Origin: Opitutaceae bacterium | Lineage (GTDB): Bacteria > Verrucomicrobiota > Verrucomicrobiia > Opitutales > Opitutaceae | Direction: 5' to 3' | Assembly: GCA_031254955.1 (NCBI GenBank) | Contig: JAIRTK010000012.1 | Span: 1-12,340, forward strand | Length of the DNA: 12,340 bases | In this document: positions 4,624 through 10,970 of the stretch, in pieces | Numbering within the stretch: the stretch's first letter is position 1 | Layout of the letters: the number at the start of each line of letters is the position of its first letter | The notes under the pieces: generated by a model | Seen by the model: only the letters and a program-made list of their open reading frames with translations | Told to the model about the DNA's origin: nothing | Database searches by the model: none | Translations under genes and position numbers: made by a program

Positions 4624-6717
4624 TCATAAAACCCGCAGCGTTTTTCTATAAAAGTCCACAACTTCGTCGGGGTCGTCGGTGAATAGTATATAGTCCAGCA
4701 TCCATTCGGGGGCGCGTTTGGTTTTGACCATGTTGCGGACTTGTTTTCGGAGGTCGGTCCAGAAGCGGCTGTTGTAGAATATATAGGGGACGCGCGGGCG
4801 GATGCCGAGTTTCAGGTTGCAGAGTTCGATGCCGATTTCCTCCAGCGTGCCGACGCCGCCGACGTTGAAGATGCAAAAGTCCGCCACTTCAAACCATTTC
4901 TGGCGGTAGTGGCGCGAGGTTTCCTGGAAGGTGTTGAAGAAATCGACGCCGATTTCCGGGGGCTGGGCTTCGAGTTCGAGGAAACAGGCGCCGGTGAGGG
5001 CGCCTTTGCCGCGGGCTTGCTCGGTGGCCAGGCGCATGACGCCGCCGCCGCCGCCGGTGAGCACGCCGACGTTGGCGCCGATGAAGCCGGTGAGTTTGTT
5101 GATGAGCGCGGAGATGCGGTCGGTGTCGGCTTGGTCGAGGCCGACGGCGGAGCCGTAGAAGGCCAGGATGGTGGTTTCCTGAAATTTGCGGGCGAGTTCC
5201 TCGCGCACGAAGAAGCCGTGGTCTTTTTTGTAGGTGTGGAGGTAGAGGTCGCCGAGTTGGTCGTTATACCAGTAAACGTCGATGCCGAGGTCGGCGTAGT
5301 TGACGAGGCGTCCGTGGGCGTTGTGCGAGAGGAAGAAGCCGTGGGTGCGGGAGGGGCGGCGGAAGATGAGGCGTTTGAGTTTGAGTTGGGGTAGGCGGGC
5401 GAGGATTTCGATTTGCTCGGGGAGATTGGGGAAGTAGTCGGTGACGAGTGTGTCGGCGTCGGCGGGGGCGGCGTCGAGGGCGTTGACCACGGTGCGGTGG
5501 GTGACGGGGCCGGGGGGGGCACTGGCGGCGGCGGCGGCGCTGGCGGGGGAGGAGGAGGAGGCGGCGGGAGCGGAGGAGGAGGCTGGGGAGATGGCGGCGG
5601 CGGCGGGGGCATTGGCGGTGAGCGCAGTGGTGGTGGTGGCGGCGAGCGCGGTTTTCAGGGCGGCGTGGTCGAAGAGCAGTGTCGAGGGGAGGAAAAGGGA
5701 GCGGTTTTCCTGGGTGGAGTTTTGTCCGTTGACCGTGACGCGGGCGCGGGGTCTGGCTTCGGCGGTGTCGCGGGGCGGGTTTTCGTCGAGGGAGCGGTAA
5801 AGTTCGGTGGCGGAGGCGAGGAGGCGCGTGCGTTTTTTGAGGAGGGATTTGCGGTCGGTGTCGGCGGGGGCGGGGGCGCGGAAGACTTCGACGGAGACAA
5901 CCGGGTTGATGACGGGTTGGTCGCCGGTGTTGTAGATTTCCAGCATGATGTTGGTGCCGAAGGTTTTTATGGGGTCGAGGAGGACGGCGGAGGTGTGGAT
6001 GCCGAAGTTGCCTTCGCCGCGGTTGAGGATGACGTAGTGCTCTTTCAAATACATGGAGCAGCTGGTGAGGATGCCGGAGCGGGGCGGGATGGTGAGGAGC
6101 GGGGTCTCGTGGCGCACTTGGACTTTGTCGAGGTAGGCGCGTCCGGCGTCGCCGGAGACCAGGCGTTCGAACTCGGGGCGCTGGAGGCGGGGGTTGAGCG
6201 TGTAGCGGACGTTGTGCGGGGTGAGGAAGACGGAGCCGCGGCGGTCGATGCTGATGGTGGAGGGGAGTTTGAGGGCGTTGGCGGCGATGGCGGCCTGAAT
6301 TTCGGCGGAGGAGAGCCGGGCCGATTCGGGGGCGTGGAAGAGGCGTCCGACGGGCGCGCCGGAGCGGAGGAGTTTTTTCCAGTAGGAGGCGTGGGGGAGG
6401 CTGTGGTCGAAGAGGAACGCCTCGGCGTCAAACACGAGCCGGTTGCCGTCAATGGAGAGCGGGGTGGTGCGGACCATCTCGATGCCGATGCGGGCGAGCG
6501 TGCTGCGTTCGGTAAAATGGAGGTCGGCGATGCGGGCCTTCATGGTGTCGAACTCGGCGGGGTGGCGCGGCCAGAAGGCGAGGGTGAGCGAGACGGTGCG
6601 GTCGCCGTCGGCGGACGGGCGGACGGTGAGGATCTGGCCGTCCTGGCTGGTCCAGAAGGCGGCGGCGGCGGCGGGTTGCGGGCGGGCTTTGTCGGAGGAG
6701 GCTGTGTTGGCGGGCAT
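4624..6717 (-). CDS. LOG-family (nucleosidase-like) protein with large N-terminal extension
   Basis: A 697-residue protein. Residues about 420-697 form a LOG/TIGR00730-type Rossmann domain: FYGSAVG (520-526), TGGGGGVM (554-561) and VGGVGTLEE (619-627), the last matching the PGGxGTxxE phosphoribohydrolase motif with Val for Pro. Known LOG proteins cleave nucleoside 5'-monophosphates to free base and ribose 5-phosphate. Residues about 355-406 are an Ala/Ser/Pro/Thr linker. In the N-terminal part, residues 205-282 (IPPRSGILTSC, then HTSAVLLDP and FGTNIMLEIYNTGDQPV) read like the core of a dUTPase/dCTP-deaminase beta fold, but the usual catalytic RSS motif is not evident; this is inference. No signal peptide or membrane segment is seen, so it is probably cytoplasmic. 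The LOG family is usually 180-280 residues, so this is a large, unusual architecture. The start ATG 6717 has no Shine-Dalgarno. It is divergent from the beta-CASP gene. Confidence 0.85.
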   Translation of the reverse strand: MPANTASSDKARPQPAAAAAFWTSQDGQILTVRPSADGDRTVSLTLAFWPRHPAEFDTMKARIADLHFTERSTLARIGIEMVRTTPLSIDGNRLVFDAEAFLFDHSLPHASYWKKLLRSGAPVGRLFHAPESARLSSAEIQAAIAANALKLPSTISIDRRGSVFLTPHNVRYTLNPRLQRPEFERLVSGDAGRAYLDKVQVRHETPLLTIPPRSGILTSCSMYLKEHYVILNRGEGNFGIHTSAVLLDPIKTFGTNIMLEIYNTGDQPVINPVVSVEVFRAPAPADTDRKSLLKKRTRLLASATELYRSLDENPPRDTAEARPRARVTVNGQNSTQENRSLFLPSTLLFDHAALKTALAATTTTALTANAPAAAAISPASSSAPAASSSSPASAAAAASAPPGPVTHRTVVNALDAAPADADTLVTDYFPNLPEQIEILARLPQLKLKRLIFRRPSRTHGFFLSHNAHGRLVNYADLGIDVYWYNDQLGDLYLHTYKKDHGFFVREELARKFQETTILAFYGSAVGLDQADTDRISALINKLTGFIGANVGVLTGGGGGVMRLATEQARGKGALTGACFLELEAQPPEIGVDFFNTFQETSRHYRQKWFEVADFCIFNVGGVGTLEEIGIELCNLKLGIRPRVPYIFYNSRFWTDLRKQVRNMVKTKRAPEWMLDYILFTDDPDEVVDFYRKTLRVL

Positions 6718-6820
6718 GGTTTTGTCGCGGGATGGCTGGTTTTTGGTGGAGTTGGAAAAATGGGAAAGCCGTAAGTGAATGCCCGATGCGCCCGCCGGGC
6801 AAGGTGGGAGTTCCAGCGCC

Positions 6821-7096
6821 CTCTTCCTCGTGATTTCTATCGTTCTCGTTCTCGTTATTTTTCTCGTTTTCTTTATTTTTTTCTTTCCTCGTTCTCGTTC
6901 TCTTTCTTCGTTCTCGTTCTCGTTCTTCTTTTTTCTTATCTTTCCTCTTTTTTCTTATCTTGCTTCTTTCTTCTTGCTCCTCCGGGCGGTGCCGCTGCGG
7001 GTGAAAGAGAATGATAAAGATAAAGAAAATGATAAAGAGGAGAAAACGAGAACGAGAACGATAAAAAAGATAACGAGGAGCGAGGAACAAAGAAAG
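6821..7096 (+). repeat. Hexamer-array fold-back element, copy 1
   Basis: A pyrimidine tract of about 160 nt (6821-6983) built from TCGTTC and TATCTTT-like units is followed by the core GGGCGGTGCCGCTGCGGGT (from 6984) and then a purine tract of about 95 nt (to 7096) built from AAAGAT, AATGAT and AACGAG units. The two tracts are imperfect reverse complements; for example CGTTCTCGTTCTCGTT near the left end matches AACGAGAACGAGAACG on the right. The arms are unequal in length. It sits between the divergent LOG-like and beta-CASP genes. Confidence 0.85.
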
Positions 7097-7120
7097 CACC
7101 TGCCCCGCCTGGCCTTCGCA

Positions 7121-7139
7121 TTTGAAATGCCCCCGTTTC
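7121..7139 (+). repeat. 19-bp sequence shared with 10523-10541
   Basis: TTTGAAATGCCCCCGTTTC matches TTTGAAGTGCCCCCGTCTC in 17 of 19 positions; GGCGG follows closely in both. This copy contains a 5-bp inverted repeat (TGAAA/TTTCA). It lies 24 bp after the first fold-back element, whereas the other copy precedes the second element. Confidence 0.55.
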
Positions 7140-7182
7140 ATGGCGGATTTATGGCGGACTCATGGCGGATTCATGGCGACTG
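7140..7182 (+). repeat. 11-bp tandem repeat (ATGGCGGAYTY)
   Basis: Units start at 7140, 7151, 7162 and 7173: ATGGCGGATTT, ATGGCGGACTC, ATGGCGGATTC and a partial ATGGCGACTG. It lies directly upstream of the beta-CASP promoter candidate. Confidence 0.75.
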
Positions 7183-7196
7183 CCGGCTCCCCGGCA

Positions 7197-7226
7197 TTGG
7201 CAAACACAGGATTCATGCGTTATATT
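7197..7226 (+). promoter_or_regulatory. Candidate sigma-70 promoter for the beta-CASP gene
   Basis: TTGGCA (7197-7202), 18 bp, then TATATT (7221-7226); each hexamer matches five of six consensus bases. Transcription would start near 7233, leaving a leader of about 250 nt before ATG 7483. Predicted by eye. Confidence 0.5.
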
Positions 7227-7482
7227 GCCATCCAGCATTATTCCGCCGTGCCGCCAACTCGCTCACACTTCCCGGACCAGCCGCGCGCACGCGCGCACGC
7301 CGGGATTCCATGCCGGCCTGTTTCCCGGCGTGGCCCCAATCCTCCGCGCAATCCCCAAAAACGACGCTCGCCACCGCCCCGTCAAGACGCCCCCGAGGGT
7401 TTGCCTCCGGCGGACCTTGCATTCCCGCGCAAATCTTGCTCTTGCGGAAGCGCGCCCGCTCCCTCTTTCTCGCTAGCACGAC

Positions 7483-8841
7483 ATGAAGCTCATTGACCTG
7501 AACCGCGACGGCGAAATCGGCGCGAATTGCCACTACATCCAGATCGGAAGCCTCAACCTTGTCATCGACAGCGGCTTGCATCCGAAAAAAGCGGGACGGC
7601 TCGCCATGCCCGATTTCGGGCCGATACGCGGCGTCCACCTCGACCTCATCATCATCACGCACTGCCACCTCGACCATATCGGCAGCCTGCCCGTGCTCCT
7701 GCGCGAACATCCCGAGGCCCCCGTCATCATGAGCACCTCCAGCCGCATGCTGGTCGAACGCATGCTGCATAATTCCGCCAACGTCATGATGCGCCAGAAA
7801 GAGGAAGCCAACATCCCCGAGTATCCCCTTTTCACCCACGAGGAAATCGACCGCATCGCGAAACGCCTCACCGGCATCCCCTTCGGCCAAGCCAAACGCA
7901 TCCAAGGCGGCAAGGACGACATCACCTTCATCCTCCACCCAGCCGGCCACGTCGCCGGCGCGGCGGGAGTGGAACTTCACCACAAACGCCGCCAGATATT
8001 CCTCACCGGCGACGTGCTCTTCGAGGACCAACGCACGCTCCCCGGCGCGAAATTCCCGGCCGGACGCTTCGACACGCTCGTCATGGAAACCACTCGCGGC
8101 ATCACCGCGCGCGGCTCCGAAAAAACCCGCCTCATCGAAGTCTCCCGCCTCATCGACAGCATCAACGACACCATCCAGCGCGGCGGCTCGTATCTCATCC
8201 CCGTGTTCGCGCTCGGCCGCCAGCAGGAAATCCTCTCCATCATCCACGACGCGCGCAAATTCCGCCGCCTCGTTGACTGCCCCATCTTCGCAGCCGGCCT
8301 CGGCATGGACCTGGCCGACTACTTCGACGAAATCTCGCGCAAAACCAAACACGTCCGCTTCAACCGCGGCATCATCAAGGAACTCCAGCTCAAGCCCACC
8401 CCGCGCAAACTCAACCCCGGCGAAGACCCGCGGCAAAACGGCCTCTACATCATCAGCTCCGGCATGATGGTCGAGCGCACGCCCTCCTACACCCTCGCCT
8501 CCGGACTCGTCGGCCACGCCCGCAACACCATAGGCTTCGTCGGCTACTGCGACCCCGACACGCCCGGCGGCGAACTCCTGGCCTCGAAACCCGGCGACCA
8601 GTTTCTCTTCAAAGCGTGCAACGTGAAAGCCAAGATCAAAGCCCGCATCGAACGCTTCGACCTGAGCGGCCACGCCGACCGCGAAGAGCTGCTCGAATTC
8701 GCCGTGCAAGCCAGCCCGCGCGCCATCGTCCTCACGCACGGTGAAAACGAAGCCCGCGCCTGGTTCGCCGAACAACTCGCCGAAAAGCTTCCCAAAACCA
8801 AGCTCATCGACCCGCGCCCCCTCGAAACCTACCAAGTCTAA
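7483..8841 (+). CDS. MBL-fold beta-CASP RNA metallo-hydrolase
   Basis: A 452-residue protein with complete zinc-site and beta-CASP signatures. HCHLDH at 60-65 gives the metal ligands H60, H62, D64 and H65; H156 (HPAGHVAG) and D177 (TGDVLF) complete the lactamase half. A beta-CASP cap follows at about 205-380 (GGSYLIPVFALGRQQEIL, then SSGMMVE), and the C-terminal SGHAD (H397) and THGE (H419) close the site. Family members are zinc-dependent endo- or 5'-3' exoribonucleases related to CPSF-73 and RNase J; the length fits the single-domain bacterial type like Thermus TTHA0252. It is cytoplasmic, probably acting in mRNA or stable RNA processing; the substrate is not readable. ATG 7483 immediately precedes the conserved first strand and has no Shine-Dalgarno. 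No catalytic residue is missing. The RluA-type gene lies 638 bp downstream on the same strand. Confidence 0.95.
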   Translation: MKLIDLNRDGEIGANCHYIQIGSLNLVIDSGLHPKKAGRLAMPDFGPIRGVHLDLIIITHCHLDHIGSLPVLLREHPEAPVIMSTSSRMLVERMLHNSANVMMRQKEEANIPEYPLFTHEEIDRIAKRLTGIPFGQAKRIQGGKDDITFILHPAGHVAGAAGVELHHKRRQIFLTGDVLFEDQRTLPGAKFPAGRFDTLVMETTRGITARGSEKTRLIEVSRLIDSINDTIQRGGSYLIPVFALGRQQEILSIIHDARKFRRLVDCPIFAAGLGMDLADYFDEISRKTKHVRFNRGIIKELQLKPTPRKLNPGEDPRQNGLYIISSGMMVERTPSYTLASGLVGHARNTIGFVGYCDPDTPGGELLASKPGDQFLFKACNVKAKIKARIERFDLSGHADREELLEFAVQASPRAIVLTHGENEARAWFAEQLAEKLPKTKLIDPRPLETYQV

Positions 8842-10541: not shown

Positions 10542-10642
10542 GGCGGTTGGCTCTACTTTGTCAACAGGGGTTAAGCGGGCGGCGGGCGGGATTGCGTGGC
10601 ATGGGCGAGGACGCCCGCGCCCTACGCCCCGCCCCCTTTTAC

Positions 10643-10839
10643 TCGTTCTCGTTCCTCGTTCTCGTTCTCGTTCTCTTTATCTTTCTCTTTCTTCTTTATC
10701 TTTCTTCTTCGGGCGGTGCCACTGAGGGAGAAAGATAAAGATAAAGATAACGATAACGAGAAAGATAAAGATAAAGAGGAAAGAAGAAAGATAACGAGAA
10801 AGAGATAAAGAGAACGAGAACGAGGGAAGAGGAAAGAAG
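10643..10839 (+). repeat. Hexamer-array fold-back element, copy 2
   Basis: Left arm 10643-10710 is pyrimidine only (TCGTTC units outside, TTTATC units inside). The core GGGCGGTGCCACTGAGGGA starts at 10711, and the right arm to about 10839 is nearly pure purine (AAAGAT and AACGAT inside, AACGAG outside). Read on the purine strand from the core outward, both arms are arrays of AAMGAK with occasional 1-2 nt slips. The longest paired blocks include CTTTATCTTTCTC with GAGAAAGATAAAG and CTCGTTCTCGTTCTC with GAGAACGAGAACGAG. The first 25 core bases match copy 1 in 22 positions. Confidence 0.88.
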
Positions 10840-10970
10840 GTGGGGCTTTGGTTTGAAGAGCACCCTCCGAAACGGCTGCCGCAACCAGCACCCCGACGGC
10901 GGTAATGATTACGATAGGATATGGGATGCGTGTCCTCGATGGGCTTGCCCTGCGGGCCAAATTGTAATTT

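Follow-up and report, generated by a model that had tools for sequence, protein, structure and literature searches.

Uptake sequences of Neisseria (DUS) and Haemophilus (USS) occur in pairs that double as terminators. REP elements and BIMEs are palindromes of 20–40 bp tagged by GTAG or CGTC, in which the tag lies unpaired at the foot of the stem, and PMC3733652 describes Opitutus terrae as highly enriched in GTAG repeats. Bacterial MITEs such as RUP, NEMIS, ERIC and Nezha are non-coding, foldable elements of 70–300 bp with inverted ends, which are present in some relatives and absent from others. According to PMC4679880, arrays of the heptamer TAACTGA in Beggiatoaceae are direct repeats located just upstream of start codons, and the intrastrand triplex motifs of PMC4666352 need a third, Hoogsteen strand. 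Our literature search, made mostly outside subscription papers, returned no description or function of the hairpins reported below.

Here we analyze a window of 12,340 nt (contig JAIRTK010000012.1 of the Opitutaceae assembly GCA_031254955.1, forward strand), in which a sequence-only reading had singled out a fold-back tract at 6821–7096. We classify this tract and its relatives as a variant of extragenic palindromic repeats, with REPs and MITEs as the nearest kinds. Like the REPs and BIMEs of PMC3733652, they are short extragenic palindromes dispersed in the genome, frequently close to the ends of genes, in which both stem and loop vary, and their loop motif GTCAGG/CCTGAC contains CGTC if preceded by C. 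Unlike the REPs of that same text, they have stems made of word strings of 30–160 nt, and carry the motif at the loop. They share with MITEs the features listed above, but their arms are word arrays whose make-up varies among copies, direct repeats accompany just 3/14 copies, and the class spans genera without common outer ends. With DUS and USS pairs they have in common a short word in inverted pairs at the gene ends of one taxon, but the Opitutaceae words form arrays of degenerate units in place of one fixed 9–12-mer. The TAACTGA arrays are likewise intergenic, built of a short word, limited to some lineages and of unknown function, but the Opitutaceae arrays are inverted and lie for the most part on the side of the stop codon. 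Polypurine/polypyrimidine units that fold along one strand also make up intrastrand triplex motifs, but our element shows only two complementary arms. We do not call the hairpins REPs or intrinsic terminators, because the defining features of both were looked for and not found. In particular, a RAYT-driven REP was rejected: none of the 20 Y1_Tnp loci in three genomes of the genus is flanked by word hairpins (one has such a hairpin, more than 1.2 kb away), and the tract is not a 20–40 bp palindrome with a tag at its foot.

Structure and setting of the element

Read on the opposite strand, the left, pyrimidine arm (6821–6983, + strand) contains AAMGAK 11 times, against a mean of 2.1 and a maximum of 7 in mononucleotide shuffles. 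Its repeats had been described as pure pyrimidine, which is too strong: 144 of the 163 positions (88%) are pyrimidines, the remainder being 6 A and 13 G. The core GGGCGGTGCCGCTGCGGGT (6984–7002, +), which forms the apical part of the hairpin, is an exact match to the degenerate core and is common to other copies in the genome. It is followed by the right, purine arm (7003–7096, +; 86% purine, 81/94), with 8 AAMGAK units against a shuffle mean of 1.2 and a maximum of 5 (again mononucleotide shuffles). The right arm aligns with the left one over its full length with a score of 69, compared with a mean of 38 and a maximum of 60 for shuffled right arms (n = 300), in agreement with the proposal of a fold-back tract with a GC-rich core between mirror arms. 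The predicted RNA fold of the tract has z = -5.3 on the + strand and -5.9 on the - strand, and 0 of 200 dinucleotide shuffles were as stable on either strand. The hexamer AAMGAK, although enriched in both arms, is too narrow a description, as the stems of this class string together words of six or seven nucleotides that fall into two or more types, either GAACGA/GAGTAA/GAATGA-like words or AAAGAK with AAAGARG/AAAGAAT, and enclose variable loops.

The tract itself is real, but it is longer than 6821–7096. Visual comparison with the right ends of other copies (...GGCCTCACTTTGAAACGCACCC) reveals a degenerate right outer end of type B (...GGCCTTCGCATTTGAAATGCCCCC) at 7097–7134 (+), and the orthologous sequence of a congener picks up again just past it (~7134). 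The left outer end appears truncated, with the GGGTGCGTTTCAAACCAAAGCCACGCCC of other copies being unrecognizable by eye beyond ...CGCCC. Next to the right end of the element we observed 3.8 tandem copies of an 11-mer, TTCATGGCGGA (7137–7178), an array that is shorter at the same site of the congener.

The tract lies in a divergent promoter setting, between a minus-strand ORF starting at 6717 and a plus-strand ORF starting at 7483. The left neighbor lies on the minus strand, and the C-terminal part of its product matches Lysine_decarbox. The right neighbor (7483–8841, +) encodes a beta-CASP metallo-hydrolase with an RMMBL domain, of a ribonuclease-like family; its adjacency implies no connection to the hairpin. 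A search of the window against Rfam gave no family match at the gathering score. Two open frames cross the arms, 6449–7141 (-, 230 codons) and 6779–7486 (+, 235 codons), as none of the words supplies a stop codon in either frame; both are likely to be spurious genes in automatic annotation.

The window contains a second copy at 10639–10865, composed of a pyrimidine arm (10639–10710, +; 89% pyrimidine), the core GGGCGGTGCCACTGAGGGA (10711–10729, +), which has no mismatch to the degenerate core, a purine arm (10730–10839, +), and a right outer end of type A, GTGGGGCTTTGGTTTGAAGAGCACCC (10840–10865, +), recognized by eye as the reverse complement of end A. Its arms align with a score of 73, against a shuffled maximum of 50. 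This copy is situated downstream of a pseudouridine synthase gene and upstream of a gene for a 3-keto-disaccharide hydrolase-like protein.

A core-bearing subfamily in the host genome

The host assembly (G000) comprises 3,582,559 bases in 574 contigs and is 68.7% complete. The core proposed in the sequence-only reading is present at other places of this genome, with seven places at up to one mismatch; at three mismatches there are 141 matches against 117 for the reversed pattern, and therefore only close matches are meaningful. The degenerate core with up to two mismatches occurs at 50 places (reversed control 26), and a pattern that adds the beginning of the purine arm to the core matches 20 places (reversed control 0). 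We collected 25 core-bearing copies with both arms. Among the 57 relatives searched, however, the exact core is found in one only, namely this genome, and a wider collection of genome contigs, from which the window's own genome may be absent, yielded 0 stretches. The core is thus conserved in the host and ruled out as a marker of a broad family.

The copies share a common plan: an outer end, either A (GGGTGCGTTTCAAACCAAAGCCACGCCC) or B (GGGTGCGATTCAAAGTGAGGCCATGCGTCC), the pyrimidine arm, the core, the purine arm and an inverted end. The host genome has end A at 8 places and end B at 22, and neither was found in the congeners G001 and G002; related ends (GATTCAAAGTGGTGTCAT) are attached to some hairpins of G002 (4 ends). 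As in MITEs, these ends form terminal inverted repeats: they are paired around 14 copies of the host genome, the left end being truncated in the 6821–7096 copy. Direct repeats of 8–10 bp flank 3 of the 14 two-ended copies, compared with 0 of 182 mispaired flanks, and repeats of at least 8 bp are missing in the other 11. No transposase with matching ends adjoined the ends that we inspected (near-consensus ends, about 10% of G002).

A scan for hairpins with 18-nt arms in 218,662 bases of the host genome, in which many contigs were already known to hold core matches, identified 14 pyrimidine-first hairpins and 1 purine-first hairpin. Separate repeats are also present. One, ATACCCATTCCCAATGAAAATCAC...TAGGGGCGTCGCTTGCGACGCC...GGGTAT, is frequent in the host genome (five loci recorded, among others) and occurs once within a word element. 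Further palindromic repeats, seen at four loci, are those ending in (CT)GATGTTACGCG...CGCGTAACATCAG, and GGGAGGCCTCTCCGAGGCCTCC; some of them sit in word arms.

Related hairpins in Opitutaceae and beyond

Arrays of GAACGA were detected in 10 of the 57 relatives, the reversed control giving 0 in each. Many of those inspected are hairpins with unrelated loops, and at least one is a lone array. A compact pattern of this type (GTTCTCGTTCTC-loop-GAGAACGAGAAC) was found in 24 of 252 Opitutaceae genomes, from 15 of 49 genera (reversed control 0), with 62 forward matches, some of them overlapping. The opposite, purine-first order is present in 3 of the 252 genomes with 4 matches, the two patterns being out of phase by half a word. 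On the complementary strand, pyrimidine-loop-purine once more reads pyrimidine-loop-purine, so that either strand gives the same hairpin. An AAAGAK-type pattern (TCTTTCYTCTTT-loop-AAAGARGAAAGA) is present in 31 of the 252 genomes and 16 of the 49 genera (reversed control 0), and is commonest in the genus of the window, with 201 overlapping places in G002. That the tract is an assembly artefact, which had been listed as a possible objection, is unlikely, because hairpins of this kind recur across a large number of separate assemblies (24 and 31 of 252) and in a single congener contig of 7.82 Mb.

In 84,980 genomes the GAACGA-type pattern matched 50 stretches, of which 45 bear the titles Opitutaceae, Opitutus, Opitutae, Rariglobus or Verrucomicrobia. 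The five others, with a single hairpin each, are titled Sumerlaeota, Contendobacter, Desulfobacterales, Kiritimatiellae and Fimbriimonadales; they could stem from transfer or from contigs binned wrongly, or be due to chance.

Within 400 kb of G002 sampled at even steps, all 8 pyrimidine-first hairpins with 18-nt arms are of the word type, and all 7 purine-first ones are unrelated palindromes. Purine-first palindromes beginning with TGAACAGAAGGAAACGAAGG recur in G002 (two loci) and represent a separate repeat. The same scan of 400 kb of G005 found none. G008, a complete genome of another genus, contains GAACGA arrays that run on without a break over long stretches (77 forward and 39 reverse overlapping matches), and the compact GAACGA hairpin pattern is absent from it. 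At two places in ACE_VER3 a GAACGA hairpin is nested in the loop of an AAAGAK hairpin, and the loop sequence is identical in both copies.

Of 46 AAAGAK-type loops in G002, 16 contain the motif GTCAGG/CCTGAC, and GTCAG/CTGAC is present at the loop in 7 of 22 family copies. The orientation of GTCAGG relative to transcription in G002 (4 same, 5 opposite) gave no signal.

Covariation of the arms and stem perfection

In the 25 core-bearing copies of the host genome the two arms of the same copy align with a score of 64.4, compared with 49.7 between copies, and 0 of 20,000 permutations reached this difference. The set used fixed 110-nt arms picked regardless of complementarity; this arm length was chosen after a 13-copy result, and two members of the set (L027 and L168) are near-duplicates. 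The 13 copies that pass a strict purine filter show weaker covariation (1,229 of 20,000 permutations). In 38 congener copies the corresponding values are 0.82 within and 0.685 between copies (0 of 10,000 permutations), which proves little because these copies had been chosen for complementarity. The between-copy scores of the 25-copy set are alike for left-left (51.0), right-right (53.8) and left-right (49.7) comparisons, and therefore all arms share one lexicon, the extra match being copy-specific. The effect is a tendency for the two arms of one copy to change together: the own partner ranks best of 25 in just 4 copies, and that of the 6821–7096 copy stands behind six others. Complementarity is thus retained where the arms of different copies differ, as the sequence-only reading had asked to be checked.

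Paired changes can also be recognized by eye in the family set (cttactc..gagtaag, cgtaatc..gattacg, cctactc..gagtagg). In G002, 18 of 50 copies contain an ungapped perfect stem of at least 30 bp, the longest being 42, and 8 of 50 have 5–12 bp of non-word sequence inversely repeated outside the words (10 were listed by the script, two of which are word sequence and were left out).

Position relative to genes

Neighboring genes were called with a home-made codon-bias script. Hairpins inside called genes are rare: 1 of 51, 2 of 50 in G002, and 1 of 22 in the family set. In G002, 35 hairpins are located between co-directional genes, 5 between convergent and 7 between divergent genes, and 1 at an edge; gaps of at least 100 nt in this genome number 134 co-directional, 34 convergent and 54 divergent. 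The divergent location emphasized in the sequence-only reading holds for 6821–7096 but is untypical of the class, though not rare in it. Where both neighbors were called, 7 of 47 hairpins are divergent in G002 (the expected share of gaps being 54/222), and 5 of 45 and 3 of 20 in further sets. In co-directional gaps of G002, 27 of 35 hairpins are closer to the stop codon upstream than to the start codon that follows (medians 26 and 72 nt); the corresponding counts are 19 of 31, with one tie, in the 51-hairpin set and just 7 of 13 in the 22-copy family set. The skew towards stop codons is thus moderate, and tolerance of insertions could yield an equal one.

Word hairpins are present in viral sequences as well. 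The GAACGA type gave 0 matches in viral contigs, and the AAAGAK type gave 8 stretches on 7 contigs, with a script-confirmed hairpin in 4 of the stretches. The IMG/VR contig 3300017766_004787, which has portal and head-maturation-protease matches, carries five word hairpins within about 23 kb, in a row of co-directional genes, at 1, 9, 7, 5 and 85 nt past stop codons. Three of the four with a called downstream gene are closer to the stop, and all five contain the GTCAGG/CCTGAC loop motif. In two viral contigs a comparable hairpin, CTTCTTTCTTCTTTCA...TGAAAGAAGAAAGAAG, encloses a different loop.

Orthologous sites in congeners

The right-hand neighbor of the 6821–7096 copy has orthologs in G002 (96% identity) and G001 (93%), and the gap upstream of the ortholog lacks the element in both. 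By eye, the flanks in G002 continue through the site, with a short unrelated stretch in place of the element. The copy is therefore, as MITEs are, present in one relative and absent from others at the orthologous site, and it was either gained in the lineage of the window or lost in two others. Close to the second copy, the hairpin that G002 carries directly after the pseudouridine synthase gene is a different one. Two further orthologous gaps contain word elements of different make in both species, and one contains a word element in G002 only. These five gaps, compared by eye, are too few for a conclusion.

Possible origin and role of the hairpins

The tract at 6821–7096 belongs to a dispersed class of extragenic hairpin repeats in Opitutaceae, for which we favor, at an even chance, the interpretation that the hairpin serves as a signal at the 3' ends of genes and also spreads like a REP or a MITE. 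The hairpin may mark or protect gene 3' ends without a U-tract, as an mRNA end, a transcription boundary or a stalling hairpin. In the species of the window, copies that share a fixed core and the inverted outer ends A and B would have spread as a subfamily, and the 6821–7096 copy would be a MITE-like insertion into a divergent promoter region that took place after the split from the two congeners. The arms could stay matched through replication, if one were copied from the other, or through selection on the hairpin. The structure, recurrence, arm order, covariation and intergenic location of the hairpins, their presence in the phage and the lack of this copy in the congeners are direct observations; the role at 3' ends, mobility as the source of the gain and the upkeep of the arms are inferred from them.

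The main rival, to which we give a substantial but clearly smaller probability, is that the hairpins are purely parasitic MITE- or REP-like repeats served by a transposase in trans, with the bias to gene ends due to selection against other insertions. The absence of the 6821–7096 copy from the site in the congeners, the outer inverted ends in the host genome, the short direct repeats in 3 of 14 copies, the nesting of one hairpin type in the loop of the other at two places of one genome, and other repeats within arms (two loci) all argue for it. The five phage hairpins among structural genes, four of them 1–9 nt past stops, would be hard to obtain from random insertion. In addition, no transposase gene with ends A or B was seen at the inspected places, and the GAACGA type occurs in other genera without recognizable outer ends.

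A bolder version of the preferred interpretation, which we regard as rather doubtful, is that the hairpins are self-matching. Upon a change of words in one arm, the other would be rewritten from it by template switching across the hairpin during replication, which would leave stems of 30–42 bp perfect despite copy-specific word order, length and even non-word flanks. Cells and phages alike would use the hairpins as 3'-end signals free of U-tracts on both strands, and one species would have mobilized a subfamily. Perfect stems built of differing words, as well as the inverted non-word flanks, could be explained by the copying of one arm from the other, but also by the young age of each copy or by selection on the hairpin.

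It is unlikely that the stem is maintained solely by selection on the sense-strand RNA. The stable predicted RNA folds and the location of the hairpins downstream of genes speak for such selection. However, no excess of wobble pairs was found on the sense strand in 65 elements between co-directional genes, a comparison of low power, in which G-U-type transition mismatches (AG+CT) number 17 and A-C-type ones (GA+TC) 19.

We consider it very improbable that the hairpins are standard Rho-independent terminators grown long and repetitive. Many copies sit just past stop codons, but there is no U-tract on either strand: a T-rich tract (at least 5 T in 8 nt) was found in 2 of 100 flanks in G002 and 9 of 92 in the family GAACGA-type set. 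The stems are made of A-T and G-C words instead of a short GC-rich stem. Because they have no U-tract, the hairpins are not standard intrinsic terminators; they may be U-independent terminators, a reading that forms part of the interpretation that we favor.

Finally, ordinary microsatellite expansion, in which two slippage-prone tracts came face to face by chance, is hardly credible: the arms are indeed low-complexity words whose number varies among copies, but the pyrimidine-first order is consistent (62 forward against 4 purine-first matches), the copies share a core or loop motif, 18 of 50 congener copies have long perfect stems, the arms covary, and the reversed-pattern controls gave 0. 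Nor is the tract one tandem array lacking a mirror-image partner, as the arms are paired, fixed in order and covarying.

Implications

If the favored interpretation is true, Opitutaceae possess an extragenic hairpin signal of variable sequence and constant form, which they have in common with a phage. The concerted variation of the arms makes the copies a natural experiment on the upkeep of matched long inverted repeats, and the hairpins make a gene-end signal free of U-tracts testable. They would also explain tracts that are read as false open frames or as microsatellites in the genomes of this family.
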